From NCBI GenBank assembly GCA_946811185.2, contig OX328102.1, forward strand, positions 13,269,194-13,333,193: DNA of 64,000 nucleotides. Reading direction: 5' to 3'. Position numbers and translations under genes: made by a program. Below the pieces are notes generated by a model that had not been told where the DNA came from, ran no database searches, and saw only the letters and a list, made by a program, of their open reading frames with translations. The stretch is from Hippopus hippopus (taxonomy: Eukaryota > Mollusca > Bivalvia > Cardiida > Cardiidae). Positions 5,582 through 21,341 of the stretch are shown here, in pieces (position 1 is the first letter of the stretch; the number at the start of each line of letters is the position of its first letter).

Positions 5582-5595
5582 AGTAGTATTGGAGA

Positions 5596-5634
5596 GTCAG
5601 ATGGGGCACAAATAGGCCATGTGCCCCATCTGAC
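5596..5634. repeat. Terminal hairpin palindrome, left
   Basis: GTCAGATGGGGCACA and TGTGCCCCATCTGAC are perfect 15-bp arms around a 9-nt loop, 14 bp from the element end. A second interrupted palindrome follows at about 5643-5700 (TGCCCCATTCTGCT ... AGCAGAATGGGGCA). Mirrored at 21289-21327. Terminal fold-backs of this type are expected at replication ends of TIR-bearing, PolB-replicated DNA; that role is inference. Confidence 0.75.
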
Positions 5635-6104
5635 TTACCCTGAGTGCCCCATTCTGCTAACCGGGGAGTGAAATGGGGCCCGGGTAAGCAGAATGGGGCA
5701 AAACCGGAAGTAGTTTTCGACAAACCGGAAGTGATTTTTAGTAAATGGAGTTATCTCCCCTGATTTTATCCTGAGAGGGGGGAAATGGGCGTGGCTTAGG
5801 AAAGTCACGTGACGTCGCCATGACGACACGTGACGTCACTTCCGGTTGACGTGACCTTCCGGTACCTATTCTCCTTACCCTGAGAGGGGGAAAGATGGGT
5901 GTGGATTAGGAAAGTCACGTGACGTCATGGTTACAGGGCAAAGACCATTTCCGGTTGATCTTAGACTGCACATGTTGCAGAGATTGGACAGTCCCTATCT
6001 GACTTACCCTGAGTGCCCCATTCTGCTTACCCTGAGTGGGGTTGTACTGACTGAAAGTCTTGAAAATTGACAATTTGAAAGATCACTCTTTCGTGTGGAA
6101 TGGT

Positions 6105-6120
6105 AGCCCTGAAAAGGGCT
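6105..6120 (-). terminator. Histone-type 3' stem-loop SL1
   Basis: On the minus strand AGCCCTTTTCAGGGCT: 6-bp stem, UUUC loop, then ACCATTCCACACGAAAGAGTG with a purine-rich GAAAGAG block about 12 nt downstream. Serves the left TIR gene. Confidence 0.8.
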
Positions 6121-6205
6121 GTTTGAGGAGGTTGTGTTTTTTAGGCACAACCTCCAACTTTTCTGCAGGCTGGACAGCTGCTTGCTGTCCGCCTCTTTAG
6201 CCTCC

Positions 6206-6451
6206 TCAATTCCGTCTCGTCCAGGTTAAAGTGCAGAGAGAACACGGCTCATTGTCGTCATCCCAGCATTCCGTCACTGGGATGACAAACTCCTTCTTTT
6301 CGTTGGCTGCCGATGCCGACATTGGTGGTGATGGTAGCCTTTCTTCTTCTGCCATCAAGTGGTTGAGCTGGTTGTTAACCCTCTCTAATTTCAATGAGAG
6401 GGTGGATACCGCTCTCATTAAGTTTTGAACTGATTTTCGAAGATCTTCCAT
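6206..6451 (-). pseudogene. TIR gene copy, frameshifted (coiled-coil/CxxC protein)
   Basis: Left-arm copy of the gene at 20358-20786. The first 37 residues are almost identical (MEDLRKSVQNLMRAVSTLS start, one H/Q change). A block of about 50 codons present in the right copy is then missing or replaced. The reading frame shifts by one base just after the WDDD acidic motif, so the conserved C-terminal helix and the SCPAC zinc motif are out of frame although their DNA is still present down to 6130. It retains its own TATA box (6484-6490) and stem-loop (6105-6120). Either a decayed copy or one expressing a truncated 81-aa product. Confidence 0.7.
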
Positions 6452-6483
6452 CGTTCAATTGAATAGTGAAAAATTTCACTGGC

Positions 6484-6660
6484 TTTTATAAGCTGGTGGG
6501 AGAATTGACCTACTTTGGTTCAGAATTAACGTTGACCAATCAAAATGTGTAATGATATAACGAACGAATCGATTGGACACTGTTAATTCTATGTCAAAGT
6601 AGGTCAATCCTCTCGTCAGAACTAGGATTGACCTACTTTGATTCAGAATTAAGAGCGCGT
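6484..6660 (-). promoter_or_regulatory. Palindromic promoter module P1 and TATA
   Basis: TATAAAA at 6484-6490 (minus). Upstream lies the inverted module: GACCTACTTTG, GAATTAACGTT and CCAATC on one side, GATTGG, TTAATTC and CAAAGTAGGTC on the other, around a central AATGTGTAATGATATAACG. A third GATTGACCTACTTTGA half-site occurs at about 6630. Drives the left TIR gene. Confidence 0.75.
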
Positions 6661-7118
6661 TCCCGGGCGAAAGCACCCTCGATGAAGAGGGGGTTTAAAC
6701 GCTATGTGTTATTAAGTGTAACTCTTAGAGGTAGAAATGCCAAAATTTGAAAAGAATAATCTTTCAGAATTAACGTTTTTTGACCAATCAGAAGCTTTGT
6801 TGCTTTAACGTTGACCAATCAGAAGCTTCGTTATATTTCTTTGTGTGCGTAAAAAAAGAAGCTAGAAGGAGAAGATTCGTGTTATGCTCAGGAATTGGAC
6901 TTAGTCTTTTTTTTTTGATATGGAATACAGTGTGAATTTAATACCCACACTGTCTCTGGTCAAGAGGTCTGGGAATAGACTTTTTTTTGTCTGGTTAGAG
7001 TAAAAAATTTGCAGTGGGACTGTGGACTTAGGCTTTTTTTGAGTATAACTCATTGGCTGAAAGTCTTTTGACTGAAAACTGACAATTCGAAAAGAAAGAT
7101 CTTTTCGTGGTGTTGGAT
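6661..7118. other. Conserved intergenic spacer of the element
   Basis: Contains a CCCTC-TTCAT-GAGGG hairpin within a GTTTAAAC-flanked block (about 6660-6705), two inverted-CCAAT (TTGACCAATCAGAAGC) sites and the segment GGTATTAAATTCACACTG-like with its CTCTGGTCAAGAGGTCTGG core (about 6930-6980). The same order recurs at 15840-16200, 16740-17170, 18330-18730 and 19700-20165. No ORF. Confidence 0.65.
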
Positions 7119-7134
7119 AGCCCTGAAAAGGGCT
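7119..7134 (-). terminator. Histone-type 3' stem-loop SL2
   Basis: Minus-strand AGCCCTTTTCAGGGCT followed by ATCCAACACCACGAAAAGATC. It lies 30 nt after the stop codon of the 7165-7473 gene. Confidence 0.82.
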
Positions 7135-7164
7135 GTTTTTCTGTTTTGGAATGTTTTCCAGCTT

Positions 7165-7473
7165 TTAATGAGAACAATTTGCATGGCAGATTGGACATGC
7201 TCCGACTCTTTTCGTGATTGTCATTGCTCCATTATTAAAAGTAATCCGTCTCCCGAGTTCCACATCAACCAAGATAATGTCAGGTGTTGTCTCTAGAACT
7301 AGTTCGACTATTTTTTCACCAAGATCTATGTATGTGCGTGATATTTGTTCTAGCTGTATTCTATTCTCTTCAATCCTGTTCTTTAGTATCAGTACTTGAT
7401 CACCACCAATCAGAAAGACTCGGAGAGCCTCAATAAGTCGATGATTCATTTGCTCCATTTTTTTCGTTAACAC
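7165..7473 (-). CDS. Small coiled-coil protein with C-terminal CPxC zinc motif
   Basis: 102 aa. Residues about 1-60 form a predicted amphipathic, Glu/Ile/Leu-rich helical region (repeated ...RIEENRIQLEQISRTY...). A short beta-like segment follows, and the protein ends in GACPICHANCSH, a Cys-x2-Cys plus Cys/His group that could bind zinc alone or as a dimer. The same plan, N-terminal coiled coil and C-terminal CPxC, is seen in the TIR gene at 20358, suggesting distant homology; I know no named family. TATA at 7535-7541 (minus), half promoter module at 7553-7585 and stem-loop SL2 30 nt after the stop support expression. Function unknown. Confidence 0.75.
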   Translation of the reverse strand: MLTKKMEQMNHRLIEALRVFLIGGDQVLILKNRIEENRIQLEQISRTYIDLGEKIVELVLETTPDIILVDVELGRRITFNNGAMTITKRVGACPICHANCSH

Positions 7474-7534
7474 TTATCAGTGCTATTCGAGATCTGAGTG
7501 TCGAATGATTTATTATTTGGAAAAATTCGACGAC

Positions 7535-7600
7535 TTTTATACGTTTGCAGTGGGATTGACCTACTTTGACTTAGAATTAAGAGCGCCATCCCGGGCGAAA
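7535..7600 (-). promoter_or_regulatory. Promoter P2 (TATA plus half module)
   Basis: TATAAAA on the minus strand at 7535-7541, then GTAGGTCAATCCC-type half-site (plus: GATTGACCTACTTTGAC, 7557-7573) and GAATTAAGAGCG. The second, inverted half of the module is missing here. Confidence 0.65.
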
Positions 7601-7836
7601 GCACCCTGAGCAAAGTTCTGTGAAAAAAAAGCTTAATGCATACATATGTGGAAAAATCTCTTTAGAACAGATCTATTTTGAATGAAGTAGAAAAGCATTC
7701 AATCGACCTAGACAAAAAGTGAAAATTAGAAGGCTTTTTTGAGTGTAACTCTTAGAGTGTAACTCTTTGACTGAAAGTCTTTTGACTGAAAATTGACAAA
7801 ATTTGAGGAAAGATAGATCTTTTCGTGGTGTTGGGT

Positions 7837-7852
7837 AGCCCTGAAAAGGGCT
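7837..7852 (-). terminator. Histone-type 3' stem-loop SL3
   Basis: Minus-strand AGCCCTTTTCAGGGCT followed by exact ACCCA, then ACACCACGAAAAGATC. It lies 20 nt downstream of the 7873-8013 stop codon. Confidence 0.85.
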
Positions 7853-7872
7853 GTTTGTACAGGTTCACTTTT

Positions 7873-8013
7873 TTAACCTCTTCTCTTTATTCTCCTATTT
7901 TCCATCGCATTTATTACTTGGAATAGATGCTCAACTTCACGCCTTATACGTCTAAGGTGTTCTCTTTCTTCTATCCAGTTCAGCAATGTAAGTAAAATTG
8001 TTAGTCCAAACAT
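7873..8013 (-). CDS. 46-aa basic helical micro-ORF
   Basis: A short ATG ORF (MFGLTILLTLLNWIEE start, ending NRRIKRRG) between a TATA box (8077-8083, minus) and stem-loop SL3. It has a hydrophobic N-terminus (residues 3-14, possible membrane anchor or helix core) followed by a strongly charged helix with REHLRRIRREVEHLF. Its length is below usual ORF cut-offs, but its position between a promoter module and a stem-loop, with stop-to-stem spacing of 20 nt, matches the other genes. No family recognised. Confidence 0.65.
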   Translation of the reverse strand: MFGLTILLTLLNWIEEREHLRRIRREVEHLFQVINAMENRRIKRRG

Positions 8014-8076
8014 TGTGCTGATTTGGTTTTAACTCTACAGCAGTTGAGTTCCGAATGAATGTGTTTCGCGATTGTC

Positions 8077-8378: not shown

Positions 8379-8522
8379 ATGGAGGAGCAGATAGAGATGG
8401 AGAAGAAAAGAAAAGAAGAAGAAAGAAAAAGAGAAAAGTTCAAAGCACTGTGTGCTGTTTTTGAGAGGCGGGGGTACGAGTTTTATACTCGTACGCCAAA
8501 GATCAAGATGGGGAATATTTAA
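8379..8522 (+). CDS. Small Lys/Glu-rich coiled-coil protein, C-terminus altered
   Basis: 47 aa from the first ATG after the TATA box at 8270-8276: a highly charged helix (MEEQIEMEKKRKEEERKREK) followed by FKALCAVFERRGYEF. Paralogous, in inverted orientation, to the 51-aa gene at 15135-15290 (matching E/K helix, then TLCEFLKRQGREF and SLVWN). Here the frame closes early, at 8522. DNA resembling the paralogue's last codons (CTGGTATGGAATTAA) persists at about 8597-8611, and the stem-loop sits about 30 nt beyond that. The gene has therefore probably suffered an insertion or frameshift and has a long 3' UTR. Confidence 0.55.
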   Translation: MEEQIEMEKKRKEEERKREKFKALCAVFERRGYEFYTRTPKIKMGNI

Positions 8523-8641: not shown

Positions 8642-8657
8642 AGCCCTTTTCAGGGCT
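8642..8657 (+). terminator. Histone-type 3' stem-loop SL4 with CAAGAAAGA
   Basis: AGCCCTTTTCAGGGCT, then ACC and, at 8667-8675, CAAGAAAGA, which is the classical sea-urchin-type histone downstream element sequence. Serves the 8379 gene. Confidence 0.85.
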
Positions 8658-8777
8658 ACCATTCCCCAAGAAAGAGCTTTTCTTTCGAATTGTCAATTTT
8701 TTCTCTCAAAAGGCTTACAGTCAAAAGACTTACAGTCTGAAGAAAAAAAGTCAAGCCCAGAATTATTTCATATGTTT

Positions 8778-8783
8778 TTTATT
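8778..8783 (-). terminator. Poly(A) signal AATAAA (minus)
   Basis: AATAAA on the minus strand in AATTGTTTGAATAAAAAAC, convergent with SL4 and positioned to end transcripts of the zinc-knuckle gene. The mirror copy at 14970-14975 ends the 14140 gene. Confidence 0.55.
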
Positions 8784-8978
8784 CAAACAATTTTGTACAA
8801 TGAAACAAGACATGAACTGTGAAAAAAACGATGGAATGAAAAAACAATATCTGTTAAAAACATTGGAATGAAAACATTTAAACAAGTCAACCTTTTTTGT
8901 TAAAACATTTTTTAAAAAACTTAAAACAATATTTTGCAACAGTTTTTTCAACAACCACTTTTTTTGTTGAAACTTTTT

Positions 8979-9235: not shown

Positions 9236-9820
9236 TTAGATTATCGTTTGTAGATGTTCTGTTATTTTACAGATCTCTGTATCGCCGATAGTCGTGTTTT
9301 CGATCTGCATATTTTCGATCTGATTTTCACCCGACGATGTTGTAGTCTGTAGTGAACTTGTTTTCCATTTATTTTCGTTGCAGAATGATTTCAGAACACC
9401 AACGAATTTCATGTTCTGAAATTCACCACAAAATTCCATTGTTGGTGAAATTTTGATATCATGACTGCATGGGTTCACATAGACAAAAACGACTGTTTCT
9501 GTCTGCTTTTCTTTTTCTGGACAATTTCTAGCCCAGTGTCCTGATTTGTTGCATGTAAAACAAATATCTTTTCTCTTTCCATCCGGTTCATATCGTTTTT
9601 TGATCGCTGTTTGATTTAAAACTCTGTATCTGGTAATACGGTAAACGTCTTTTTCTGTTACATGTTGATGGGATAAAAATGATCCCACATAGTTCCCGAT
9701 ATGTTGAACTTGATACTTTAACGGAACATTGCTAATCTCGTAATCGTGGGTGTATGGGTTAACATACAGATACATCATCTTTCCTATCAGTGATGTATTT
9801 TGTAGCTTAAACTCACTCAT
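9236..9820 (-). CDS. Zinc-knuckle (CCHC) protein of the polymerase block
   Basis: 194 aa. A perfect CCHC knuckle CFTCNKSGHWARNCPE lies in the middle of the protein (about residues 88-103), preceded by a basic KKRYEPDGKRK patch. Two similar segments flank it: YLYVNPYTHDYEISNVP near the N-terminus and FVYVNPCSHDIKISP after the knuckle, an internal repeat of about 17 residues with a YVNP-x2-HD-x2-I core. The tail is Thr/Glu/Asn-rich. Likely a single-stranded nucleic-acid-binding protein acting with PolB, by analogy with other CCHC proteins. Divergent from polB (155 bp between start codons) with its own TATA at 9890-9896. No palindromic module and no stem-loop; the nearest signal is AATAAA at 8778-8783. 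Confidence 0.8.
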   Translation of the reverse strand: MSEFKLQNTSLIGKMMYLYVNPYTHDYEISNVPLKYQVQHIGNYVGSFLSHQHVTEKDVYRITRYRVLNQTAIKKRYEPDGKRKDICFTCNKSGHWARNCPEKEKQTETVVFVYVNPCSHDIKISPTMEFCGEFQNMKFVGVLKSFCNENKWKTSSLQTTTSSGENQIENMQIENTTIGDTEICKITEHLQTII

Positions 9821-9975: not shown

Positions 9976-12900
9976 ATGGGTAAAAGAAAAAGAATAGTAC
10001 CCTATTCAGACAGTGAAAGTGACAATGAGTCATTTTCACCACCAAAAAAAATGAAAAAAGAAGAAAGTGACAGTGAAGACGATTTCTCTTCACCCAAGAA
10101 AAAACCTGTAAAAATGATTGTAGAAAGTGACAGTGAAGATAAAATCTCCTCGAAAAAAATGAACGTGAAAAGTGACAGTAAAGATGAAACACCTAAGAAA
10201 AAAACGATCATGAAAAGTGAAAGTGAAGATGATATCTCCTCGAAAAAATTGATTGAGGACCGAAAAGAAGAAAGTAACAACACTACTTTAGACATGAAAA
10301 GTCTGTATGACTTAACGGAGAAGGGAAAAAAGAAATCGAGGAAATTTAGAACAGAATCACATCTGTTGATGGCGTCTTTTAAGAAATTTGAAGAATTACC
10401 ACCCCATCAACTGATCGGATTATTTGATGAAGTTACCCATCAAATCATTCAAAAGTTAAATGCTGAACCGAAGGATATGATTAGAATTAGTATCAACCAC
10501 CCTTCATTGAAAATTGGGATTCATATTCCCTTTTTACCTACAGAACAGCTGAAAGGCAAAACTATTTTAAATGAGATTGAACGAGTTTTACAATCGAATA
10601 CAGATTTCGTCTTGAACGATGGATTCATGACATTTGACATTACACATACAATACCTCCAAGTGGTAACGGGAGAAAAAGATCATCAGAATTGGATTCAAA
10701 GGTTTTTGTCCGGAAGAAAAAATCAATTATTCAAATTAACAATCATGATCACCTATGTTTTGCAAGAGCAGTTGTGGTGGGCATTAGCTACAGTGAACGT
10801 GAAAACACCAAAGCATGGGATAGAAGATGGTTATGCATCAGAAAATCAGACACAATACTTCAAAAGACTGAAGCTGAGAAACTGTTGAATGAAGCTGGAG
10901 TTTCACCAACCCGGTCTGTAGGAATTGACGAATGCAAAAAAATCCAATATTTTTTGTATGAAAAGGGCTATGTCATTAAAGTTCATCAACAGCATTCAAA
11001 AGTGGAAAAAGTATTTGAACACCCAGAAGTGAAAGACGATAGTAAAATCATACATTTTTACTTTCATCAAAACCACTATGATTACATCAAATCCACTGCA
11101 GGTTTTCTTAGTTGTGCATGTTATTGTGAGTTCTGTGATGTGGGATACTCGGGACAGGAAAGTCATGCATGTTCAAATATCTGTAAAGGTTGTTATCGCA
11201 AAGGAAAATGTCCATCAGAATCAAAAGAATATGTTTGCAGTGGGTGTCATAGACGATTTTTCAGTGCTGCATGTTTGGCAAATCATAGAAATGTTCAAGG
11301 TAAAGAAAAGAAATCCATTTGTGAATTAGTAAAACTCTGTTTAAAATGTAGTCAACAATATCAAGTCAGAAAGAAAAATCATATCTGCCATGGAAAGAAA
11401 AAGTGTCATATCTGCAAGAAAATTGTTGACTTTTCTCATCGATGTTATATTCAACCTTACCAAAGTAAGACAAAGACCGATGACAAGACGAGTTGTTCTG
11501 TAGTCAAAAAACCATTGTTCATTTTCTTTGATTTTGAATGCAAACAAGACACAGGAGTACATATCCCGAATTACTGTATTGCACACAGGTCATGTGATGA
11601 ATGTATCGATAAACCACTTGATTTTCATTGTTCCACATGCAGTGAATTTAAAGAAGGAAGAGAAGTTATTTTTCAAGGTGAGGAAACTTTGAGTCAATTT
11701 TGCAACTGGCTCTTTTCAGAACATCATAAAGGAGTCACGGCTATTGCGCATAATTTCAAAGGCTATGACGGACAGTTTATTTTTGACTATGTTATCAAAA
11801 TTGGGCTAAAACTTCCAAGTTTGATCATGAATGGCAATAACATTATGAAGTTAGAACTGAATGGAGTGCGTTTGATCGATTCTTTTAATTTCATGAACTT
11901 CGGTTTGGCAAAATTTCCAGCTACATTTGGTCTTCAAGAAATGAAAAAAGGTTACTTTCCTCATTGGGCAAATACAGATGAATTCTGGGGTTACATTGGC
12001 CCCTACTTGGATATGTCTTATTACAAACCCGATTCAATGTCTGAAGAGGCCAGGTCAAATTTCATAGTCTGGTATAATGATAAAGTTCAAAGGGATGAGG
12101 AATTCAATTTTCAAAAAGAGATGGAAATGTACTGTAGGTCAGATGTTGATATCCTAAGACGAGGATGTGGTGAATTCAGAAAAGTGTTTATTGAACAGGG
12201 TGGCATTTGCCCATTTCTAGAGGCGGTTACCATTGCCGATGCATGTAACAAGGTTTGGCGAAGCAAATATTTGCCTGAAAATCAAATAGCTATCATTTCA
12301 AGTAAAGATGCATCCAGACGTCGCTTTTACATGAAAGCAATACGCTGGATCCAGAGCGTAGCTATGGAAAAAGGAATCAATATTCGCCACGCAAACAATG
12401 GTGGTGAAGTTCAGATCGGGAGATACAGTGTAGACGGATTTCACCGTCAATCAAACACTGTCTACGAATTTCTTGGGGATTTGTTTCATGGCTGTCCCGT
12501 ATGTTATACAGATCGAAAACAGATCAATCCCATCAATGGAAGATCGATGTCTGAATTGTATGAACGTACTTTTGAACGTTTAGGAGCTATCCAAAAAATG
12601 GGGTACAACGCAGAGTTCATATGGGAACATGAATTCGATGCTAAGATGAAGAAGTATAAAGAGTACAAAAAACTCATTGAAAACCTGTATCCAAATCGGG
12701 ATCCCATCGATCCAAGGGAGGGGTTGTCTGGAGGAAGATGTTATGCAATAAAAATTGCCTATGATGTCAAGGAAAAAAGTAAAAAGGAAATCAAATACAT
12801 TGATATTTGTTCTCTGTACCCTTATGTTTGCAAACACAAATCTTATCCTGTAGGTCAACCAAAAATCTTGACTACTGAGAATATTGACGTGAAGAATATT

Positions 12901-14073
12901 CGTCAGTATGAAGGAATAATTAAATGCAAAGTTTTACCCCCAGATGATTTATTTCACCCCGTTCTCCCAGTTCACTGTAACAACAAAATGATGTTTCCAC
13001 TCTGTATGAAATGTGCAGAAGAAAATTCAAACATTTGTAGACATAACAAAGAAGAGAGGGCTTTGGTAGGAACTTGGGTTACTTTTGAACTTTTTAAGGC
13101 TCTTGACTGTGGTTATCGGTTATTGTATGTGTATGAAATTTGGCATTTCGATTCTGTGTCGAATCAGTTCTTTAAAGGCTATGTGGACAATTTCTTGAAA
13201 ATTAAGCAAGAAGCTAGCGGATATCCCAGTTGGTGTCAATCAGATTCAGAAAAAGAACAGTTTATTCGTGAATATGAGGAGGCAGAAGGTATTCGTCTTG
13301 ATCCAAGTTGTATTCAAAAAAATCCTGGGAGAAGATCCTTTGCTAAGATTATGTTGAATTGTCTTTGGGGAAAATTAGCCCAGCGTGAAAAAATGACCCA
13401 GACGGAATACATCAACGATCCGTCTAAATATTTTGAATTGGTCACCAATCCAAATTTTATTGTGAAGCATGTAGAAATCTTTGACGATGACTGTCCATTC
13501 ATCTTGGTCAACTACGAAACAAAGTTGGAACATATTGATACTCACGCTACAGCCAATGTTATTGTAGGAGCCTACGTAACAGCTTATGCAAGGCTGGAAT
13601 TGTACAGCGTTCTTGAAAAGTTAAAGGATAGAGTTCTGTATTTCGATACAGATAGTTGCATGTACATTCATGATCCTGAATTATGGAACCCTCCCATTAT
13701 TAACAGCAGACTAGGAAAATGGACTGATGAAGAGCCTGATTGTAAAATCACTCATTTCAGAGGACTAGGACCAAAGAATTATGCTTACAAAATGAAAACA
13801 AAAGATGGAAAAATGAAAAGCAAATGTAAAGTGAAGGGAATTACTTTGGATTACAATACAAGTCAGGTGGTGAATTTCGATACATATTCAAAATGTGCTT
13901 TGAGTCGCACTACAGAAATCAAAATTGAATATGATTGTAGAATCAAAAGACATAGAGATAGAACGGTCACCAGTGAACCGCAAACAAAAACGTTTCGTTC
14001 TGTATACACCAAGAGAGTTATTGTAAATGATACTGACACTGTACCCTATGGCTATAAAACGTTGAGAAGATAA
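9976..14073 (+). CDS. polB: Protein-primed family B DNA polymerase (Polinton type)
   Basis: 1365 aa, uninterrupted. Residues 1-105 are an acidic/basic tail with repeated SDSED-type casein-kinase sites alternating with KKK patches (nuclear targeting likely). Residues about 380-500 hold a cysteine-rich region with at least three Cys-x2-Cys/His groups (CEFC, CKGC, CSGCH, CLKC, CHICKK). The 3'-5' exonuclease follows: Exo I FDFE (D519, E521), Exo II AHNFKGYDGQF (D598), Exo III YCRSDVDIL (D723/D725). Next comes the YEFLGDLFHGCP insert (about 831), typical of Polinton and linear-plasmid PolB. Polymerase motifs: A DICSLYP (D943), B KIMLNCLWGK (K1124), C YFDTDS (D1224, D1226). All catalytic aspartates are present, so replication activity is plausible. 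It should copy the element from its TIR ends by protein priming. ATG at 9976 follows TATA at 9918-9924. No stem-loop or AATAAA directly follows; the next gene is 66 bp downstream. Confidence 0.95.
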   Translation: MGKRKRIVPYSDSESDNESFSPPKKMKKEESDSEDDFSSPKKKPVKMIVESDSEDKISSKKMNVKSDSKDETPKKKTIMKSESEDDISSKKLIEDRKEESNNTTLDMKSLYDLTEKGKKKSRKFRTESHLLMASFKKFEELPPHQLIGLFDEVTHQIIQKLNAEPKDMIRISINHPSLKIGIHIPFLPTEQLKGKTILNEIERVLQSNTDFVLNDGFMTFDITHTIPPSGNGRKRSSELDSKVFVRKKKSIIQINNHDHLCFARAVVVGISYSERENTKAWDRRWLCIRKSDTILQKTEAEKLLNEAGVSPTRSVGIDECKKIQYFLYEKGYVIKVHQQHSKVEKVFEHPEVKDDSKIIHFYFHQNHYDYIKSTAGFLSCACYCEFCDVGYSGQESHACSNICKGCYRKGKCPSESKEYVCSGCHRRFFSAACLANHRNVQGKEKKSICELVKLCLKCSQQYQVRKKNHICHGKKKCHICKKIVDFSHRCYIQPYQSKTKTDDKTSCSVVKKPLFIFFDFECKQDTGVHIPNYCIAHRSCDECIDKPLDFHCSTCSEFKEGREVIFQGEETLSQFCNWLFSEHHKGVTAIAHNFKGYDGQFIFDYVIKIGLKLPSLIMNGNNIMKLELNGVRLIDSFNFMNFGLAKFPATFGLQEMKKGYFPHWANTDEFWGYIGPYLDMSYYKPDSMSEEARSNFIVWYNDKVQRDEEFNFQKEMEMYCRSDVDILRRGCGEFRKVFIEQGGICPFLEAVTIADACNKVWRSKYLPENQIAIISSKDASRRRFYMKAIRWIQSVAMEKGINIRHANNGGEVQIGRYSVDGFHRQSNTVYEFLGDLFHGCPVCYTDRKQINPINGRSMSELYERTFERLGAIQKMGYNAEFIWEHEFDAKMKKYKEYKKLIENLYPNRDPIDPREGLSGGRCYAIKIAYDVKEKSKKEIKYIDICSLYPYVCKHKSYPVGQPKILTTENIDVKNIRQYEGIIKCKVLPPDDLFHPVLPVHCNNKMMFPLCMKCAEENSNICRHNKEERALVGTWVTFELFKALDCGYRLLYVYEIWHFDSVSNQFFKGYVDNFLKIKQEASGYPSWCQSDSEKEQFIREYEEAEGIRLDPSCIQKNPGRRSFAKIMLNCLWGKLAQREKMTQTEYINDPSKYFELVTNPNFIVKHVEIFDDDCPFILVNYETKLEHIDTHATANVIVGAYVTAYARLELYSVLEKLKDRVLYFDTDSCMYIHDPELWNPPIINSRLGKWTDEEPDCKITHFRGLGPKNYAYKMKTKDGKMKSKCKVKGITLDYNTSQVVNFDTYSKCALSRTTEIKIEYDCRIKRHRDRTVTSEPQTKTFRSVYTKRVIVNDTDTVPYGYKTLRR

Positions 14074-14139: not shown

Positions 14140-14805
14140 ATGCTACCTTTACCAATAGAACTACGTGAGAAGATTTATGGAGAATTCGTTCATCAGCACA
14201 CGCTCGATGAACGAACGCAACTTAACATTAAAATCTACTGTGTGAAACTTTGGATAGATAAATTGTACAGAGGTTTTGAAAAAGGAGATTCGTCCTGCAA
14301 GTTGTATGGTATACACAGCTTTATTGCGATGATAATAGACGATTCGGATTTAGATCTCATTCTGAAAGCTTATTTAACAGCTTGTTGGTGGAAAGACGGT
14401 GCTATCACTAAACAAATGCGATCCACAAGTCGATGGTGCTTTATTATCATAGGAAGAACAGACGAAAGTTTTATGAACGTTCTGAAAATGAAATCAGTTT
14501 TATTTAACTTTTACTTACGCTACAGAAGAGGATCTATTCAAAACGACGAGGAAATAGTGGATACCTTGGAAGGCTATATTTTATTTGATAGAGATGTTAC
14601 AGAAGAAAGTGTATATTCATCTCTTTCAACAAAAGGCGTTTTAAAACATGTTTTTCCATTTAGTGGAATGCGTGAAATCAGTGAGATGGACTGTGAATAT
14701 TCAATATATTTGGGTAATGACCAATTGCATACAGTTATTACGGAACATGAAGACAATGGAAAACTCGGGGCATTTGTGAATTTGCATTGTGAATTTGCAT
14801 TGTAA
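14140..14805 (+). CDS. 221-aa ORF downstream of polB, unknown function
   Basis: Tandem with polB (66 bp after its stop) and lacking an obvious TATA box, so probably co-transcribed or using an internal start. The N-terminus LPLPIELREKIYGEFVHQ looks vaguely like the first helix of an F-box, but the rest does not let me confirm that. The middle is Lys/Trp/Tyr-rich with alternating hydrophobic segments, and the C-terminus ends in GAFVNLHCEFAL. There are no zinc or catalytic motifs. It is followed by AATAAA at 14970-14975 rather than a histone-type stem-loop, placing it in the same expression class as polB. Confidence 0.75.
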   Translation: MLPLPIELREKIYGEFVHQHTLDERTQLNIKIYCVKLWIDKLYRGFEKGDSSCKLYGIHSFIAMIIDDSDLDLILKAYLTACWWKDGAITKQMRSTSRWCFIIIGRTDESFMNVLKMKSVLFNFYLRYRRGSIQNDEEIVDTLEGYILFDRDVTEESVYSSLSTKGVLKHVFPFSGMREISEMDCEYSIYLGNDQLHTVITEHEDNGKLGAFVNLHCEFAL

Positions 14806-14969
14806 AATGTTATATTGTACGAAATGTTATATTGTATGAAATGTTTTTATGCTAAATTGTTTTTTGCACAGATATTGTTTTTTTCATTTTCAATGTTTTT
14901 AACAGATATTGTTTTTTCATTCCATTGTTTTTTCACAGTTCATGTCTTGTTTCATTGTACAATTGTTTG

Positions 14970-14975
14970 AATAAA
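14970..14975 (+). terminator. Poly(A) signal AATAAA
   Basis: AATAAA 165 nt after the 14805 stop, convergent with stem-loop SL5 of the minus-strand gene. Likely ends polB/14140 transcripts. Confidence 0.6.
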
Positions 14976-15092
14976 AAACATATGAAATAATTCTGGGCTT
15001 GACTTTTTTTCTTCTGGCTGTAAGTCTTTGACTGTAAGTCTTTTGAGAGAAAATTGACAATTCGAAAGAAAAGCTCTTTCTTGGGGAATGGT

Positions 15093-15108
15093 AGCCCTGA
15101 AAAGGGCT
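15093..15108 (-). terminator. Histone-type 3' stem-loop SL5 with CAAGAAAGA
   Basis: Minus-strand AGCCCTTTTCAGGGCT, ACCATTCC, then CAAGAAAGAGC within 20 nt. It lies 26 nt after the stop of the 15135-15290 gene. Confidence 0.85.
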
Positions 15109-15134: not shown

Positions 15135-15290
15135 TTAATTCCATACCAGTGACATAAAGTCGGGCGAAAACTCACGCCCTTGCCTCTTTAAAAACTCGCA
15201 GAGAGTTTTCATCCTCTTTTCCTCTTCTCTTCTTTCTTCTTTTTCTCTTTTCTTCTGATCTAGCTTCTCCTCCATCTCTCTCTTCATCAT
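15135..15290 (-). CDS. 51-aa Lys/Glu-rich coiled-coil protein
   Basis: Below ORF cut-offs but well framed: TATA at 15375-15381 (minus), ATG at 15290, stop 26 nt before SL5. Starts MMKREMEEKLDQKKREKEER, then a TLCEFLKRQGREF segment, and ends SLVWN. Inverted paralogue of the 8379 gene, and apparently the intact version. Highly charged single helix; function unknown. Confidence 0.65.
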   Translation of the reverse strand: MMKREMEEKLDQKKREKEERREEEKRMKTLCEFLKRQGREFSPDFMSLVWN

Positions 15291-15579: not shown

Positions 15580-15786
15580 ATGGTACAGATTCTTCTCTGT
15601 CCGATGTGCGGTAGCAGATGCTATATAGAATGCGGAAAATGCCTTGCTATTCTGGACTACCTCAGCCAGAAGCGTAACTGTCCTGATCCTGATGAGGGAT
15701 TTTATGACGATGATGAAAGCTCGACAGTATGCTGTGAATACTGTGGATGTGAAATCATCCCAGTAAATCGTTTAGGAGAGCAGTAG
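15580..15786 (+). CDS. Small acidic double-CxxC zinc protein (copy 1)
   Basis: 68 aa counted from the ATG at 15580 (context CCATCATGG). The upstream in-frame ATG at 15547 lies within 12 nt of the TATA box and is probably untranscribed. It carries CPMCGSRCYIECGKC at the N-terminus and CCEYCGCE near the C-terminus, separated by a DPDEGFYDDDES acidic stretch: four Cys pairs, likely a zinc-ribbon-like fold. Paralogue of 18068-18274 (shared VQIL-CP, IECGKC, NCP-P-EGFYD). Followed by SL6 27 nt after the stop. Confidence 0.75.
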   Translation: MVQILLCPMCGSRCYIECGKCLAILDYLSQKRNCPDPDEGFYDDDESSTVCCEYCGCEIIPVNRLGEQ

Positions 15787-15813: not shown

Positions 15814-15829
15814 AGCCCTTTTCAGGGCT
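15814..15829 (+). terminator. Histone-type 3' stem-loop SL6
   Basis: AGCCCTTTTCAGGGCT, then AACCAACACCACGAAAAGATC. Confidence 0.82.
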
Positions 15830-16389: not shown

Positions 16390-16683
16390 ATGCCTTCAAG
16401 AATAAGAACTCTTGACAAACGTTTCACTTTAAATGATGCTAAACGACGTTTTAGAAAAGCCTTTAATCAGATCGTCTTGCTGGAGCAACGTTTAGACAAG
16501 GTGAAGAAACGGTACAAGATGGCAGAACGTACAAACAACAGAGCGTTCCGCTATGACCTTCGAATGAAGCTTACAGTTATTGAAGGGACACTTGAAATGT
16601 TTTATGAATATGTCTTTTCCAAAGCTGACCAGATTATCGAACTTCACCGAGAGCTGTTCAACGATTCGTCTGATTCTGAATAA
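16390..16683 (+). CDS. 97-aa basic helical protein (paralogue pair, copy 1)
   Basis: Almost entirely predicted helical: a basic N-terminal third (RIRTLDKRFTLNDAKRRFRK), then LLEQRLDKVKKRYKMAERTN and VIEGTLEMFYEYVF, ending in an acidic DSSDSE tail. It shares with the 17407 gene the core motifs YKM-x-ERTNNR and VIEGTL-x-M, followed by QM/II-x-EL-x-RE. Size and charge pattern recall a small DNA-binding or scaffold protein, but it shows no histone-fold signature I could defend. TATA 54 nt upstream of the ATG; SL7 27 nt after the stop. Confidence 0.78.
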   Translation: MPSRIRTLDKRFTLNDAKRRFRKAFNQIVLLEQRLDKVKKRYKMAERTNNRAFRYDLRMKLTVIEGTLEMFYEYVFSKADQIIELHRELFNDSSDSE

Positions 16684-16709: not shown

Positions 16710-16725
16710 AGCCCTTTTCAGGGCT
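16710..16725 (+). terminator. Histone-type 3' stem-loop SL7 with ACCCA
   Basis: AGCCCTTTTCAGGGCT directly followed by ACCCA, then ACACCACGAAAAGATC: the closest match to the canonical stem-loop/ACCCA/purine-block order. Confidence 0.88.
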
Positions 16726-16739
16726 ACCCAACACCACGA

Positions 16740-17170
16740 AAAGATCTTTCTTTTCGAATTGTCAATTTTCAGTCAAAAGACTTTCAGCCAATGAGTTATA
16801 CTCAAAAAAAAAGCGTAAGTCCACAGTCCCACTGCAATTTTTTTTTGCTCTAACCAGACAAAAAAAAGTCTATTCCCAGACCTCTTGACCAGAGACAGTG
16901 TGGGTATTAAATTCACACTGTATTCCATATAAAAAAAAAGACTAAGTCCAATTCCTGTGCATAACACGAATCTTCTCCTTCTAGCTTCTTTTTTTACGCA
17001 CACAAAGAAATATAACGAAGCTTCTGATTGGTCAACATTAAAGCAACAAAGCTTCTGATTGGTCAAAAAACGTTAATTCTGAAAGATTATTTTTTTCAAA
17101 TTTTGGCATTTCTACCTCTAAGAGTTACACTTAATAACACATAGCGTTTAAACCCCCTCTTCATCGAGGG
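16740..17170. other. Conserved intergenic spacer of the element
   Basis: Near-identical to the 6661-7118 (inverted) and 19700-20165 spacers, including CCAGACCTCTTGACCAGAG, CTTCTGATTGGTCAAC and the CCCTCTTCATCGAGGG hairpin at about 17155-17170. No ORF. Confidence 0.65.
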
Positions 17171-17189: not shown

Positions 17190-17351
17190 GCTCTTAATTC
17201 TGAATCAAAGTAGGTCAATCCTAGTTCTGACCTACTTTGACATAGAATTAACGGTGTCCAATCGATTCGTTCGTTATATCATTACACATTTTGATTGGTC
17301 AACGTTAATTCTAAGTCAAAGTAGGTCAATCCCTATGCAAGAATATATAAA
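17190..17351 (+). promoter_or_regulatory. Palindromic promoter module P6 and TATA
   Basis: Half-site GTAGGTCAATCC at about 17207, then GACCTACTTTGAC, GAATTAACGGTGTCCAATC, the CGTTATATCATTACACATT core, GATTGGTCAACGTTAATTC, GTAGGTCAATCC and TATATAAA at 17344-17351. Confidence 0.75.
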
Positions 17352-17406: not shown

Positions 17407-17694
17407 ATGTTTACAAGAAAACTGACCTCGAGTGAACGCAAGATACAACGCAAAATGAATGTTGCCAAACGAGAATTTATGGAAGCCTACAAACAGATCG
17501 AGTTGCTAGAACATCGTCAAAATGTGGTAGAAGAAGCATACAAGATGTCAGAACGTACAAATAACAGATTGTACTGCTGTTACTTTGGGATAAAATTATG
17601 GGTTATTGAAGGAACACTCGATATGTACAGAGACTATACCCGCTGTAAGCGTGAACAGATGGATGAACTTGACCGGGAGTTTTTCGGCGAATAG
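17407..17694 (+). CDS. 95-aa basic helical protein (paralogue pair, copy 2)
   Basis: Paralogue of 16390-16683, with matching helical register and conserved YKMSERTNNR and VIEGTLDMY motifs. N-terminus FTRKLTSSERKIQRKMN is basic; the C-terminus ELDREFFGE is acidic. The 5' leaders after the TATA boxes are nearly identical (AGTCCGGACTCAATTG in both), showing a recent whole-cassette duplication with diverged coding sequence. Followed by SL8 42 nt after the stop. Confidence 0.78.
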   Translation: MFTRKLTSSERKIQRKMNVAKREFMEAYKQIELLEHRQNVVEEAYKMSERTNNRLYCCYFGIKLWVIEGTLDMYRDYTRCKREQMDELDREFFGE

Positions 17695-17735: not shown

Positions 17736-17751
17736 AGCCCTTTTCAGGGCT
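17736..17751 (+). terminator. Histone-type 3' stem-loop SL8 with ACCCA and CAAGAAAGA
   Basis: AGCCCTTTTCAGGGCT, ACCCA, then CAAGAAAGA starting 9 nt after the stem. All three parts of a histone 3' end are present in canonical order. Confidence 0.9.
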
Positions 17752-18029: not shown

Positions 18030-18067
18030 GGTCAATGTTTTATACATCAAATCATATTCGTTCCACC

Positions 18068-18274
18068 ATGGTTCAGATACTTATTTGCCCTTTGTGTGCT
18101 CAAGCATGCGACATAGAGTGTGGGAAATGTACATTTCCCCTACAGTATCTTGGACAAAAGCACAACTGTCCAAATCCTGCTGAGGGATTTTATGATGAAG
18201 ACGATGACCCAGGGGTTTGGTGCGAATGTTGCTGGCGAGAGATCAGACCTGTAGTTTATACAGTCGATGAATAG
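18068..18274 (+). CDS. Small acidic double-CxxC zinc protein (copy 2)
   Basis: 68 aa from ATG 18068, which has a near-ideal context (CCACCATGG) and lies 39 nt after the TATA box. The longer in-frame extension to 17972 runs back through the promoter and is not used. It carries CPLCAQACDIECGKC, an acidic EGFYDEDDD stretch and CECCWRE. Paralogue of 15580-15786. Probably zinc-binding; role unknown. SL9 follows 27 nt after the stop. Confidence 0.75.
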   Translation: MVQILICPLCAQACDIECGKCTFPLQYLGQKHNCPNPAEGFYDEDDDPGVWCECCWREIRPVVYTVDE

Positions 18275-18300
18275 CATTGCCAGACAACAAGACTCAAATC

Positions 18301-18316
18301 AGCCCTTTTCAGGGCT
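18301..18316 (+). terminator. Histone-type 3' stem-loop SL9 with CAAGAAAGA
   Basis: AGCCCTTTTCAGGGCT, ACCATTCAG, then CAAGAAAGAGTGATC. Confidence 0.85.
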
Positions 18317-18329
18317 ACCATTCAGCAAG

Positions 18330-18730: not shown

Positions 18731-18731
18731 A

Positions 18732-18889
18732 TCAAAGTAGGTCAATCCTAGTTCTGACGAGAGGATTGACCTACTTTGACATAGAATTAACGGTGTCCAA
18801 TCGATTCGTTCGTTATATCATTACACATTTTGATTGATCAACGTTAATTCTGAACCAAAGTAGGTCAATCCTCCCACCAGCTTATAAAA
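18732..18889 (+). promoter_or_regulatory. Palindromic promoter module P8 and TATA
   Basis: Complete module (GATTGACCTACTTTGAC, GAATTAACGG, CCAATC, the CGTTATATCATTACACATT core, AACGTTAATTC, GTAGGTCAATCC), then TATAAAA at 18883-18889. Almost base-for-base identical to P9. Confidence 0.78.
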
Positions 18890-18958
18890 GCCGATGATAT
18901 TTTTCTAAATAATAAATTATTCGACTCTCAGCTCTCGAATAAAACGCTAACGGAAAAA

Positions 18959-19635
18959 ATGGATTTCAACTTAAATGGATTCAACTTGGACGGTTTCAAC
19001 ATAGACGAATTCCTACCAAAAGAAAACACTGGAGATATTCTATCATCAGCAATGAATTCAACACTCATCAACCCATCTACAGCGATGAATTCAACACTCG
19101 TCAACCCAACGACTGCGATAAATACAACACTCATCAACCCAAAGACCGTATTGGACGACGTTTTTGAAGAAGTAAGACAGCTGAATTCAAAACAAATTCT
19201 GTATTGACTCAGCTTTTAGAAGAACTGAAGACTTTCAACAAACATTTGGAGGAGATAAAGACCTTAAACACAAAAACTGAACAACTGAGCAGAAACATTG
19301 ACACATTATGTCAACAGAGTAAGCGAGTTTCACCTGTTCCTGTGCAGATTCCGGTGAAAATACCGATGGAGTTTGACTTTGATAAAACCAGTCTTCATAA
19401 ACTAGTAGAGTCAATCGTAACTGTTGTAAAGAAAGAAAAACAACATCCAAAGGAAAAACAGCGAAGAGCAACAAAAAGAAAATCAGAGGAAAGCAATGGG
19501 GAACTTCACAAAAAGCAAGGAGTTCTCAACAACTGGGCAATCTCGACAATGACGGGCCAGGGCAAATATGGAAAAAAGATTGATGACTTCGATGATTTCA
19601 AGATCCCGAAAAAACCAAAGAAAAGCTGTCAGTAA
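18959..19635 (+). CDS. About 210-aa Asn/Thr-repeat and coiled-coil protein, split by a 41-nt intron or frameshift
   Basis: The 5' part (18959-19207) has FNLNGFNLDGFNIDEF and three tandem repeats of a 13-residue unit, AMNSTL-NP-TA. The 3' part (to 19635) is in the -1 frame, has no ATG, and holds a coiled coil (LLEELKTFNKHLEEIKTLN), a Pro/Val linker and a basic tail with KRKSEE and KKPKK patches. Between them GAAGAA-GTAAGA ... TATTGACTCAG-CTTTTAG fits a 41-nt intron (19166-19206 approximately) whose removal restores the frame exactly. A -1 ribosomal shift or a plain indel are alternatives. TATA at 18883-18889; SL10 32 nt after the stop. Function unknown; a nuclear, multimeric protein is a guess. 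Confidence 0.65.
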
Positions 19636-19666
19636 AGGCGAAAAAAACATTCCAATACAGAAACAC

Positions 19667-19682
19667 AGCCCTTTTCAGGGCT
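19667..19682 (+). terminator. Histone-type 3' stem-loop SL10
   Basis: AGCCCTTTTCAGGGCT followed by AACCCAACACCACGAAAAGATC. Marks the inner edge of the right TIR. Confidence 0.85.
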
Positions 19683-19699
19683 AACCCAACACCACGAAA

Positions 19700-20160
19700 A
19701 GATCTTTCTTTTCGAATTGTCAATTTCCTCTAAAAGAGATACACTCTAAGAGTTATACTAAAAAAAAAAAGCCTAAGTCCACAGTCCCACTGCAAATTTT
19801 TTTTTGCTCTAACCAGACAAAAAAAAAAGTCTATTCCCAGACCTCTTGACCAGAGACAGTGTGGGTATTAAAATCACACTGTATTCCATGTCAAAAAAAA
19901 GACTAAGTCCAATTCCTGTGCATAACACGAATCTTCTCCTTCTAGCTTCTTTTTTTTACGCACACCAAGAAATATAACGAAGCTTCTGATTGGTCAACAT
20001 TAAGCCAACGAACCTTCTGACTGGTCAAAAAAACGTTAATTCTGAAAGATTATTCTTTTCAAATTTTGGCATTTCTACCTCTAAGAGTTACACTTAATAA
20101 CACATAGCGTTTAAACCCCCTCTTCATCGAGGGTGCTTTCGCCCGGGAACGCGCTCTTAA
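19700..20160. other. Conserved intergenic spacer in right TIR
   Basis: Mirror of 6661-7118, including the CCAGACCTCTTGACCAGAG block, two inverted-CCAAT sites and the GTTTAAACCCCCTCTTCATC hairpin block. No ORF. Confidence 0.65.
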
Positions 20161-20164
20161 TTCT

Positions 20165-20325
20165 GAATCAAAGTAGGTCAATCCTAGTTCTGACGAGAGG
20201 ATTGACCTACTTTGACATAGAATTAACGGTGTCCAATCGATTCGTTCGTTATATCATTACACATTTTGATTGGTCAACGTTAATTCTGAACCAAAGTAGG
20301 TCAATCCTCCCACCAGCTTATAAAA
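20165..20325 (+). promoter_or_regulatory. Palindromic promoter module P9 and TATA
   Basis: Same complete module as P8, with TATAAAA at 20319-20325; mirror of P1 in the left TIR. Confidence 0.78.
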
Positions 20326-20357
20326 GCCAGTGAAATTTTTCACTATTCAATTGAACG

Positions 20358-20786
20358 ATGGAAGATCTTCGAAAATCAGTTCAAAACTTAATGAGAGCGG
20401 TATCCACCCTCTCATTGAAATTAGAGAGGGTTAACAACCAGCTCAATCAGTTGATGGCAGAGGAAGAAAGACCACCACTACACCCACTAGTAAACTACAA
20501 GTTGGGGCTCGTCATCACACCAACAGAGTGGAAAAAAGACGAAAATAGATGCCCACTCTTTGAAGAAAGATTGCTCTTTCTTGATGGCGGGGTAGGTCTG
20601 AAGCCGACACCACTACCACCACTCAACGAGAAGAAGGTCGCCATTCCAGTGACGGAATGTTGGGATGACGATGACGAACCACCATTCTCTCTACACTTTA
20701 ACCTGAACGAGACGGAATTGAGGAGACTAAAGAGGCGGAAGGCAAGCAGCTGTCCAGCCTGCAGAAAAGTTGGAGCTTGTGTCTAA
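20358..20786 (+). CDS. 142-aa TIR gene: coiled coil plus C-terminal CPAC zinc motif
   Basis: The intact copy. Residues 1-40 form a heptad-type coiled coil (VQNLMRAVSTLSLKLERVNN), the middle is Pro-rich (PTPLPPLNEKK), then an acidic WDDDDEPP block, a basic helix LRRLKRRKASS and the C-terminal SCPACRKVGACV with three cysteines. The architecture parallels the 7165 gene. Placement inside the TIR means two copies per element, of which the left is frameshifted. ATG is 32 nt after TATA; SL11 lies 20 nt after the stop. Confidence 0.78.
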   Translation: MEDLRKSVQNLMRAVSTLSLKLERVNNQLNQLMAEEERPPLHPLVNYKLGLVITPTEWKKDENRCPLFEERLLFLDGGVGLKPTPLPPLNEKKVAIPVTECWDDDDEPPFSLHFNLNETELRRLKRRKASSCPACRKVGACV

Positions 20787-20805
20787 AAATACAACCTCCT
20801 CAAAC

Positions 20806-20821
20806 AGCCCTTTTCAGGGCT
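20806..20821 (+). terminator. Histone-type 3' stem-loop SL11
   Basis: AGCCCTTTTCAGGGCT, ACCATTCCACACGAAAGAGTG. Mirror of SL1. Confidence 0.82.
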
Positions 20822-20869
20822 ACCATTCCACACGAAAGAGTGATCTTTCAAATTGTCAATTTTCAAGAC

Positions 20870-21341
20870 TTTCAGTCAGTACAACCCCACTCAGGGTAAG
20901 CAGAATGGGGCACTCAGGGTAAGTCAGATAGGGACTGTCCAATCTCTGCAACATGTGCAGTCTAAGATCAACCGGAAATGGTCTTTGCCCTGTAACCATG
21001 ACGTCACGTGACTTTCCTAAGCCACACCCATCTTTCCCCCTCTCAGGGTAAGGAGAATAGGTACCGGAAGGTCACGTCAACCGGAAGTGACGTCACGTGT
21101 CGTCATGGCGACGTCACGTGACTTTCCTAAGCCACGCCCATTTCCCCCCTCAGGATAAAATCAGGGAGATAACTCCATTTACTAAAAATCACTTCCGGTT
21201 TGTCGAAAACTACTTCCGGTTTTGCCCCATTCTGCTTACCCGGGCCCCATTTCACTCCCCGGTTAGCAGAATGGGGCACTCAGGGTAAGTCAGATGGGGC
21301 ACATGGCCTATTTGTGCCCCATCTGACTCTCCTATACTACT
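20870..21341. promoter_or_regulatory. Element terminus rich in CRE, E-box and ETS-like sites
   Basis: GTGACGTCACGTG and CACGTGACTTTCC occur several times, with CCGGAAGT/ACTTCCGG repeats and CTTACCCTGAGT-x-GGGG repeats. Mirrored at 5582-6055. Could act as enhancer, replication origin or packaging end; function is inferred. Confidence 0.5.
21289..21327. repeat. Terminal hairpin palindrome, right
   Basis: Mirror image of 5596-5634 with the same 15-bp arms and 9-nt loop, followed inwards by the second GGGGCA palindrome. Confidence 0.75.

Follow-up and report, generated by a model that had tools for sequence, protein, structure and literature searches.

A DNA polymerase B (PolB), long terminal inverted repeats, a 6-bp target-site duplication, and AG ends are the hallmarks of Polinton/Maverick elements, and adintoviruses combine PolB and an integrase with adenovirus-like capsid genes. 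Replication-dependent histone genes carry a 3' stem-loop, and histone pre-mRNA is reported to be cut near the fifth base after the stem (PMC6303110). Here, we describe a mobile element of 15,760 bp at positions 5582..21341 of a 64,000-nt stretch of the genome of the bivalve Hippopus hippopus (GenBank assembly GCA_946811185.2, contig OX328102.1, positions 13,269,194 to 13,333,193 of the forward strand). This whole stretch is called the window, and coordinates given without a locus name refer to it. An earlier note, made from the letters of the window, had proposed that the element is a Polinton whose small genes end in histone-type 3' processing signals. Our comparisons point to a PolB-bearing, Polinton-like element with small genes that have histone-type 3' ends (11/11) and histone-type promoters (9/11) and that are predicted to be expressed via the host's replication-dependent histone machinery, a reading to which we assign a probability of roughly 0.88.

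RESULTS

Eleven hairpins with histone-type downstream signals

The exact 16-mer AGCCCT-TTTC-AGGGCT occurs 11 times in the element, each time on the coding strand and 3' of an open reading frame (ORF); all 11 hairpins listed in the earlier note were found at their places after small genes. With up to 3 mismatches allowed, the window contained 12 matches against 0.43 expected from shuffled sequences, and the twelfth (3 mismatches) lies outside the element at 36081. The stem begins 19 to 41 nt after the stop codon in 9 of the 11 cases, within one base of the 20 to 42 nt claimed before, and 85 and 119 nt after it in the other two. The G in the second stem position (G7), said earlier to be kept, is indeed present in every copy. 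SLBP binding is reported to require a G at position 7, where the sole base-specific hydrogen bonds are made (PMC10388802); we read position 7 of that paper as the second stem base of the hairpin and the pair that is changed in the element (see below) as the first. Directly after the stem, the ACCCA ascribed to the best copies is found in three (7837, 16710, and 17736); the other copies read ACCAT (five copies) or ATCCA, AACCA, and AACCC (one each). A purine tract lies downstream of all 11 stems: the two forms previously described account for nine of them (GAAAAGA in five, CAAGAAAGA in four), and the remaining two read CACGAAAGAG instead. TGTCA begins 33 to 39 nt after the stem in all 11 copies. 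The Rfam model RF00032 (Histone3) matched every hairpin, with 22.2 to 31.7 bits and E values of 9e-6 to 0.033. Within the window the stems are all identical, with no covariation among the 11.

The hairpin genes resemble host histone genes at both ends

A profile search with PF00125 (150 matches scored) located the tandem histone cluster of the host on contig C15 at ~40.57-41.47 Mb. The histone unit is 8.5 kb long and comprises genes for H3, H4, H2B, H2A, and H1, each with a stem-loop 28 to 39 nt after the stop codon. The stems read GGCCCT-TTTA-AGGGCC (H3, H4, and H2A), GGCCCT-TATC-AGGGCC (H2B), and GGTCCT-TTTC-AGGACC (H1); their Histone3 scores of 30.0 to 35.2 bits overlap those of the element, and TGTCA begins 31 to 35 nt after the stem in all five genes. 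Comparison of the stem-loop with the species' own histone consensus had been set in advance as a check that might refute the proposal of the earlier note; the proposal passed it, in that the host genes have the same kind of stem, a similar spacing, and the same TGTCA distance, with a different first pair. The idea that the purine tract and TTGTCA form a built-in U7-like segment was dropped, since the host histone genes carry TGTCA at the same distance, so that this motif fits better as part of the histone 3' end. On the host locus that represents the unit (L060), a further promoter-like stretch with GTAGGTCAATCC lies at 2542-2635, between H4 and H2B and away from the five listed genes.

The histone unit was then compared with the element by gapped matches (high-scoring segment pairs [HSPs]) at E ≤ 0.01, with the rest of the window (48 kb) and 20 shuffled elements as controls. 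We obtained 63 HSPs, which are not mutually independent because the modules of the element are duplicated: 39 fell in the 1,235 upstream bases of the histone unit, 21 in the 650 downstream bases, and 3 in the 4,563 other bases; the 2,052 coding bases had no match. The rest of the window gave 4 HSPs, all in other intergenic DNA, and no HSP was obtained with any of the 20 shuffled elements. Every promoter HSP (39/39) runs in the direction of a hairpin gene and lies at most 700 nt upstream of it; 9 of the 11 genes are reached in this way. The 21 3'-end HSPs, which stem from H1, H2A, H2B, and H4, each overlap a same-strand hairpin and together cover the 11 hairpins. Chance placements obeyed the promoter rule in 25.1% and the 3'-end rule in 2.6% of cases. 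The best promoter match, at 17287..17351 (+), shares 79% identity with the host H2A promoter over 67 nt and has the layout GGTC...TTAATTCT...AAAGTAGGTCAATCC...TATATA. The promoter module GAGGGTGCTTTCGCCCGGGAACGCGCTCTTAATTCT at 20129..20164 (+) shares 89% identity with the host H1 promoter over 36 nt; for its first 27 nt, identity to the host H4 promoter is 96%. At the 3' side, the best match is that of region 7077-7168, around the stem-loop at 7119, to the H4 3' end (71% over 93 nt). The histone promoters contain words that also occur in the repeats of the element. One such word, TAGGTCAATCC, is present in 17 copies in the element and nowhere else in the window; the histone unit has 4 copies, all on the strand of the genes. 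The longest words shared with the element measure 14 to 17 nt for H4, H2B, H2A, and H1, lengths reached in 0, 0, 0, and 1 of 200 shuffles, respectively. As judged from these alignments, the element reproduces the regulatory sequences that surround replication-dependent histone genes, both 5' and 3'.

Stem pairing is kept in other copies of the element

The exact 16-mer is present 5,922 times in the 1.07-Gb host genome, and its reversed control is absent. The first 100 places form 22 clusters, of which the larger ones mostly span 9 to 13 kb; by extrapolation, if these 100 places hold throughout, there would be ~1,300 hairpin clusters genome-wide. The first 30 of the 5,922 sites, all on contig C1 and many in the same element copies, hence neither random nor independent, were inspected. 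A same-strand ORF of at least 60 amino acids (aa) precedes the stem in 28/30, whereas the opposite strand has one in 1/30; 26 of those 28 ORFs end 27 to 49 nt before the stem, and, by eye, most ORFs at these sites belong to the families of the window. TTGTCA follows within 75 nt at 29/30 of the sites, and a strict purine-tract pattern is found at 20/30.

Covariation was addressed by anchoring only on CTTTTCAG, i.e., the loop and the inner pairs, which restricts the test to pairs 1 to 4; sites near locus ends and identical contexts were dropped. This gave 84 distinct sites in the 30 loci, many of them in tandem arrays and hence not independent. All four outer pairs are kept in 65, with stems AGCCCT/AGGGCT (30 sites), AGTCCT/AGGACT (20), AGCTCT/AGAGCT (14), and AACCCT/AGGGTT (1); 8 of the 19 remaining sites are one unrelated repeat. 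Thus, pairs 3 and 4 vary on both sides yet stay paired, i.e., there is compensatory change. The common variant AGTCCT/AGGACT equals the host H1 stem except for the first pair.

Some copies contain tandem arrays of double stem-loops (L037 2270-2950, L016, L027, L032, and L038). The array unit consists of AGCTCT and then AGTCCT stem-loops 24 nt apart plus a purine tract, repeated every 96 to 159 nt after one gene.

The small genes

A TATA box is found 39 to 109 nt before the ATG of all 11 hairpin genes, compared with 11.8% of random 160-nt stretches of the element. Leftmost is an 81-aa ORF at 6206..6451 (-), with its TATA box 39 nt before the ATG and an upstream stretch that matches the host H1, H2A, H2B, and H4 promoters; it is a relative of the ORF starting at 20358 with a changed frame at its end, and its stem-loop (6105..6120, -), 85 nt after the stop, matches the host H2A 3' end. 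The 97-aa ORF at 7165..7458 (-; TATA at 83 nt) has upstream matches to the H1 and H2A promoters and a stem-loop 30 nt after the stop (7119..7134, -). The 46-aa ORF at 7873..8013 (-; TATA at 70 nt) is without a histone promoter match at E ≤ 0.01; its stem-loop at 7837..7852 (-), 20 nt after the stop and followed by ACCCA, has the top Rfam score of the eleven (31.7 bits). On the plus strand, the 47-aa ORF at 8379..8522 (TATA at 109 nt) has an upstream match to the H2A promoter and, 119 nt after the stop, a stem-loop (8642..8657, +) that is followed by CAAGAAAGAG.

Four further ORFs to the right of PolB have upstream matches to the H2A promoter: a 51-aa ORF at 15135..15290 (-; TATA at 91 nt; stem-loop at 15093..15108, -, 26 nt after the stop), a Cys-rich ORF at 15580..15786 (+; 68 aa from the second ATG; TATA at 45 nt; stem-loop at 15814..15829, +, after 27 nt), a 97-aa ORF at 16390..16683 (+; TATA at 61 nt; stem-loop at 16710..16725, +, after 26 nt, then ACCCA), and a 95-aa ORF at 17407..17694 (+; TATA at 63 nt), which is preceded by the stretch 17287..17351 described above and followed after 41 nt by a stem-loop (17736..17751, +) with ACCCA and CAAGAAAGAG. 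The latter is a paralogue of the 16390 ORF (nonsynonymous and synonymous divergence, dN 0.40 and dS 1.09). A second Cys-rich ORF (18065..18274, +; 69 aa from the second ATG; TATA at 42 nt; stem-loop at 18301..18316, +, after 26 nt, then CAAGAAAGAG) is a paralogue of the 15580 ORF (nonsynonymous and synonymous differences, pN 0.26 and pS 0.86) and is without a histone promoter match at E ≤ 0.01. Two ORFs of 82 and 89 aa in different frames at 18959..19635 (+) are probably one interrupted gene; the TATA box lies 76 nt before the first ATG, the upstream stretch matches the H1, H2A, and H4 promoters, and the stem-loop (19667..19682, +) follows the stop by 31 nt. Both this gene and that at 6206-6451 look interrupted by frame changes in the window copy. 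The rightmost ORF, of 142 aa (20358..20786, +; TATA at 39 nt), has upstream matches to the H1, H2A, H2B, and H4 promoters and a stem-loop at 20806..20821 (+), 19 nt after the stop, that matches the host H2A 3' end.

The divergence of the two paralogous pairs (pN 0.26 versus pS 0.86; dN 0.40 versus dS 1.09) suggests that the small ORFs are under purifying selection. The hairpins behind them (15814/18301 and 16710/17736) are identical within each pair, although the genes before them have strongly diverged. No histone or other family was recognized when the 142-aa ORF was compared with Pfam and six small ORFs with PHROGs (best E at least 0.04). The 97-aa product of the ORF at 16390 has 10 database relatives with 61 to 70% identity, and AlphaFold models the 97-aa protein as a two-helix hairpin (pLDDT 89), a shape common to many unrelated proteins.

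The element and its large genes

The limits claimed for the element, 5582 and 21341, are exact, as given by the shared ends and by the flanking target-site duplication GCCGTA (6 bp; 5576..5581 on the left and 21342..21347 on the right). AGTAGTAT is the terminal sequence read at both ends. The inverted repeats span >1 kb at each end: the left one (5582..6781, +) begins with AGTAGTAT and has blocks 93 to 99% complementary to the right one (20028..21341, -). In regions 5620-5700 plus 21220-21300 and 5770-5900 plus 21030-21150, the terminal repeats contain internal hairpins (GCCCCATTCTGC...) and several CACGTGACGTCA and ACTTCCGG motifs that resemble host promoter sites. MicroRNA families matched by long inverted repeats were all far under their cut-offs and were taken as chance.

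Three ORFs of the element exceed 150 aa. The largest, at 9976..14073 (+), encodes a 1,365-aa PolB of the protein-primed type (PF03175, DNA_pol_B_2; E 1.4e-39), named relatives of which occur in oysters, clams, beetles, and others. To its left lies a 194-aa ORF with a CCHC zinc knuckle (9236..9820, -) and to its right a 221-aa ORF without a Pfam family (14140..14805, +). The latter is followed by an AATAAA at 14970, and a 97% inverted copy of 14961-15029 at 8724..8792 (-) places a mirrored AATAAA (8778) after the leftward 194-aa ORF. Each AATAAA lies in an inverted pair of cassettes, with a stem-loop and the AATAAA on opposite strands and facing each other; the AATAAA at 8778 faces the stem-loop at 8642. 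The 16-mer scan of the window revealed no stem-loop after the PolB, 194-aa, and 221-aa ORFs, and the comparison of the host histone unit with the element gave no histone-promoter match at any of them. Because these three ORFs are without the histone signals, the distribution argues that the signals act for the small genes and do not characterize the DNA of the element in general.

The designation Polinton holds for PolB, the terminal inverted repeats, the 6-bp duplication, and the AG ends; relatives of the integrase, capsid, and protease were not found. With three Polinton integrases as tblastn queries, two of which match each other at ~1e-111, no integrase was detected in the window (best E 0.52); elsewhere in the host genome there are at least 109 integrase copies. 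The tblastn queries for capsid and protease were two capsid candidates and one protease candidate, so named by position and by eye, and nothing in the window matched better than E 0.41; the packaging ATPase was not searched for, and divergent small proteins could escape such a search.

A histone-type stem-loop in a Polinton-like relative

A search of genome contigs with a PolB alignment yielded four contigs, which come from assemblies labelled bacterial and are likely eukaryotic contamination. One of them, L002 (assembly labelled CALIZB010000033.1), has a Histone3 match; L001, L003, and L004 have none at E ≤ 1. L002 encodes a PolB relative (37% identity), an integrase with rve and chromo domains, and a TATA-binding protein (TBP). 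Near the contig end, an 89-aa C2H2 zinc-finger gene is followed after 28 nt by GGCCCT-TATC-AGGGCC, the single such stem-loop on L002; its Histone3 score of 35.8 bits exceeds the gathering score, and its stem is identical to that of host H2B. From its place, the zinc-finger gene likely lies inside the element; the contig ends close by. A 42-aa ORF that ends 6 nt before the stem was passed over, and the 89-aa ORF was taken as the gene. A hand scan of these contigs that required a perfect 6-bp stem and a T[TC][TC]C loop overlooks the L002 stem-loop, whose loop is TATC.

TBP relatives are present on L002 (7189-7695; PF00352, E 1.2e-27) and on an integrase-bearing stretch of the host (L094, 4141-4704); they are 37% identical to each other, hinting that Polinton-like elements may have their own transcription start factor. 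L094 also holds, at 2390-2779, an ORF that by eye resembles a BIR (apoptosis inhibitor) domain.

Viral contigs contained no relatives detectable with PolB alone, the PolB alignment, or the L002 integrase, and neither the exact stem plus ACC nor the canonical GGCYCTTTTCAGRGCCACC was matched in them (0 matches each); a looser stem pattern gave 4 matches, all with imperfect stems, that were taken as chance. Genome contigs gave 0 matches to a pattern of stem plus purine tract.

DISCUSSION

From the order of these signals, we infer that the mRNAs of the small genes are probably non-polyadenylated and made in S phase. In the mechanism that we propose, the host's S-phase histone transcription factors would act on the small-gene promoters, probably in the histone locus body, and host SLBP would bind the stem-loop of the transcript. 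The purine tract would be the pairing partner of the U7 small nuclear ribonucleoprotein (snRNP), with cleavage expected ~5 nt beyond the stem. The resulting mRNAs would be without poly(A) and would be destroyed once DNA synthesis stops, so that the small proteins would be tied to S phase, the period in which an element that brings its own DNA polymerase can replicate. PolB itself would use the ordinary polyadenylated route. We also lean, with distinctly less assurance, toward a wider interpretation, in which the element is a counterfeit histone array: its accessory genes, set in histone promoters and 3' ends, would be transcribed only in S phase in the histone locus body and would give the first non-histone protein-coding mRNAs of animals that end in an SLBP-bound stem-loop. 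The ~6,000 stem-loops per genome may then draw on SLBP and U7 in competition with the host, and the distant Polinton-like contig L002 suggests an old strategy or one with more than a single origin.

Several observations weigh against expression through the histone machinery. The host U7 gene was not identified by searches of the host genome with RF00066 and an Sm-site pattern: RF00066 gave 0 matches, a result without weight since the control was likewise without a match, and the U7 Sm-site pattern occurred at 83 places versus 94 for the reversed control. A U7 candidate, L093 (GCTCTTTCTAAATTTGTCTAG), had 25.9 bits with RF00066, yet it is without a strong 3' hairpin and was not counted. All 11 hairpins of the element are under the RF00032 gathering score of 34, and at the default threshold the window has no match; 5 of the 6 histone stem-loops on the host locus (H3 is present twice) are under this score as well. 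The first stem pair is A-U in the element and G-C in all five host histone genes. In all 11 copies, the purine tract and its own complement can fold into a second hairpin (e.g., 16738-16757), which might hinder U7 or control its access. AATAAA or ATTAAA also lies downstream of several hairpin genes, and polyadenylated read-through is possible. H3 stands apart in the comparison of the histone unit with the element: its longest word in common with the element is 12 nt, reached by 20/200 shuffles and hence no better than chance, and its promoter and 3' end are without a match to the element at E ≤ 0.01. Outside the element, the strongest window match to the histone unit, in intergenic DNA, has an E value of 1.6e-10, compared with 1.5e-7 for the strongest one inside it; therefore, single E values do not mark out the element, but the number and placement of the matches do. 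The exact promoter motif was present at just 7/30 of the other hairpin loci (controls, 0/30), and thus the promoter likeness is shown for the subfamily of the window element only. Finally, a 7-kb integrase-bearing stretch of the same host (one stretch read) is without a histone-type stem-loop, and, for the two integrase places on contig C1 that fall within the span of the listed hairpins, the closest of these hairpins is 104 and 911 kb away. Of the other Polintons, in which the same model was to be sought according to the earlier note, L002 thus has it and L001, L003, L004, and the integrase-bearing host stretch do not. Since these four are without the stem-loop, histone-type 3' ends seem, on present contigs, to be confined to some Polinton-like lineages.

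The alternative that survives best, though it is improbable, is that captured histone regulatory DNA serves the DNA of the element only, in replication, in escape from silencing, or in recombination between modules, and that the transcripts are ordinary polyadenylated ones. The AATAAA or ATTAAA downstream of several genes would suit it, as would the near identity of intergenic modules between some genes (blocks of 98 to 99%), which have spread by recombination or duplication. Against it, the hairpin is 3' of a coding-strand ORF in 11/11 cases here and 28/30 elsewhere, versus 1/30 for the opposite strand, and stem complementarity is kept via compensatory changes. Moreover, the TATA box, the short spacing, and the downstream motifs stand in histone-gene order, and PolB and its neighbours have none of them.

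Slightly less probable again is a main function as decoys, in which thousands of stem-loops soak up SLBP or U7 and disturb the histone supply of the host. A decoy has no need of histone-type promoters, and the window copy has one stem-loop per gene and no array; the 5,922 exact genomic copies and the tandem double stem-loop arrays of some copies are what speaks for it. There is also a small chance that the likeness runs from the element to the histone genes, i.e., that fragments of the element, which is abundant in the genome, invaded the histone spacers of the host; the sequence alone does not give the direction. Against this, the matches are in working positions (promoter and 3' end) of H1, H2A, H2B, and H4 and elsewhere in the unit only near 2542-2635, histone genes in general have the stem-loop (Rfam RF00032), and 0 of the 63 matches fall in the PolB region whereas all 60 classified ones are at hairpin genes. 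Chance hairpins, or a functionless short repeat of the element spread by duplication, would accommodate the 11 identical window stems with no covariation inside the window but are close to negligible in view of the shuffle expectation of 0.43, the covariation in other copies, the conservation beside diverged genes, and the likeness to host histone 3' ends.

If expression of the small genes through the host histone machinery is true, a mobile element with thousands of histone-type signals on non-histone genes would break a rule. It would provide natural stem-loop genes with non-histone bodies, with which the roles of promoter, 3' end, and protein in S-phase control could be told apart. It also points to a means by which a DNA element could synchronize with the replication of its host, perhaps at a cost to histone supply. 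Were the prediction correct, poly(A)-selected RNA-seq would have overlooked these genes. Among the papers listed by our literature searches, judged by titles and abstract openings, no element that uses a histone 3' end on non-histone genes was seen.

With the replication-dependent histone genes of animals, the element shares the TATA box, a short ORF, the stem-loop spacing (in 9 of 11 genes), the purine tract, the TGTCA distance, and the promoter modules of H1, H2A, H2B, and H4; it differs from them in that its ORFs are non-histone where scanned, the first pair is A-U, the purine tract is palindromic, and there are many mobile copies. With Polinton/Maverick elements and adintoviruses it has in common a PolB of the DNA_pol_B_2 family, long terminal inverted repeats, the 6-bp duplication, and the AG ends, whereas no integrase, capsid, or protease relative was found in the window copy and the 3' ends are of the histone type. 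L002, which has an integrase, TBP, and one stem-loop only, is like the element in combining a PolB relative with a Histone3 stem-loop behind a small gene, there a zinc-finger gene with a spacing of 28 nt. Some viruses and transposons borrow host promoters or poly(A) signals, and in using host expression machinery, as predicted here, the element would be like them.

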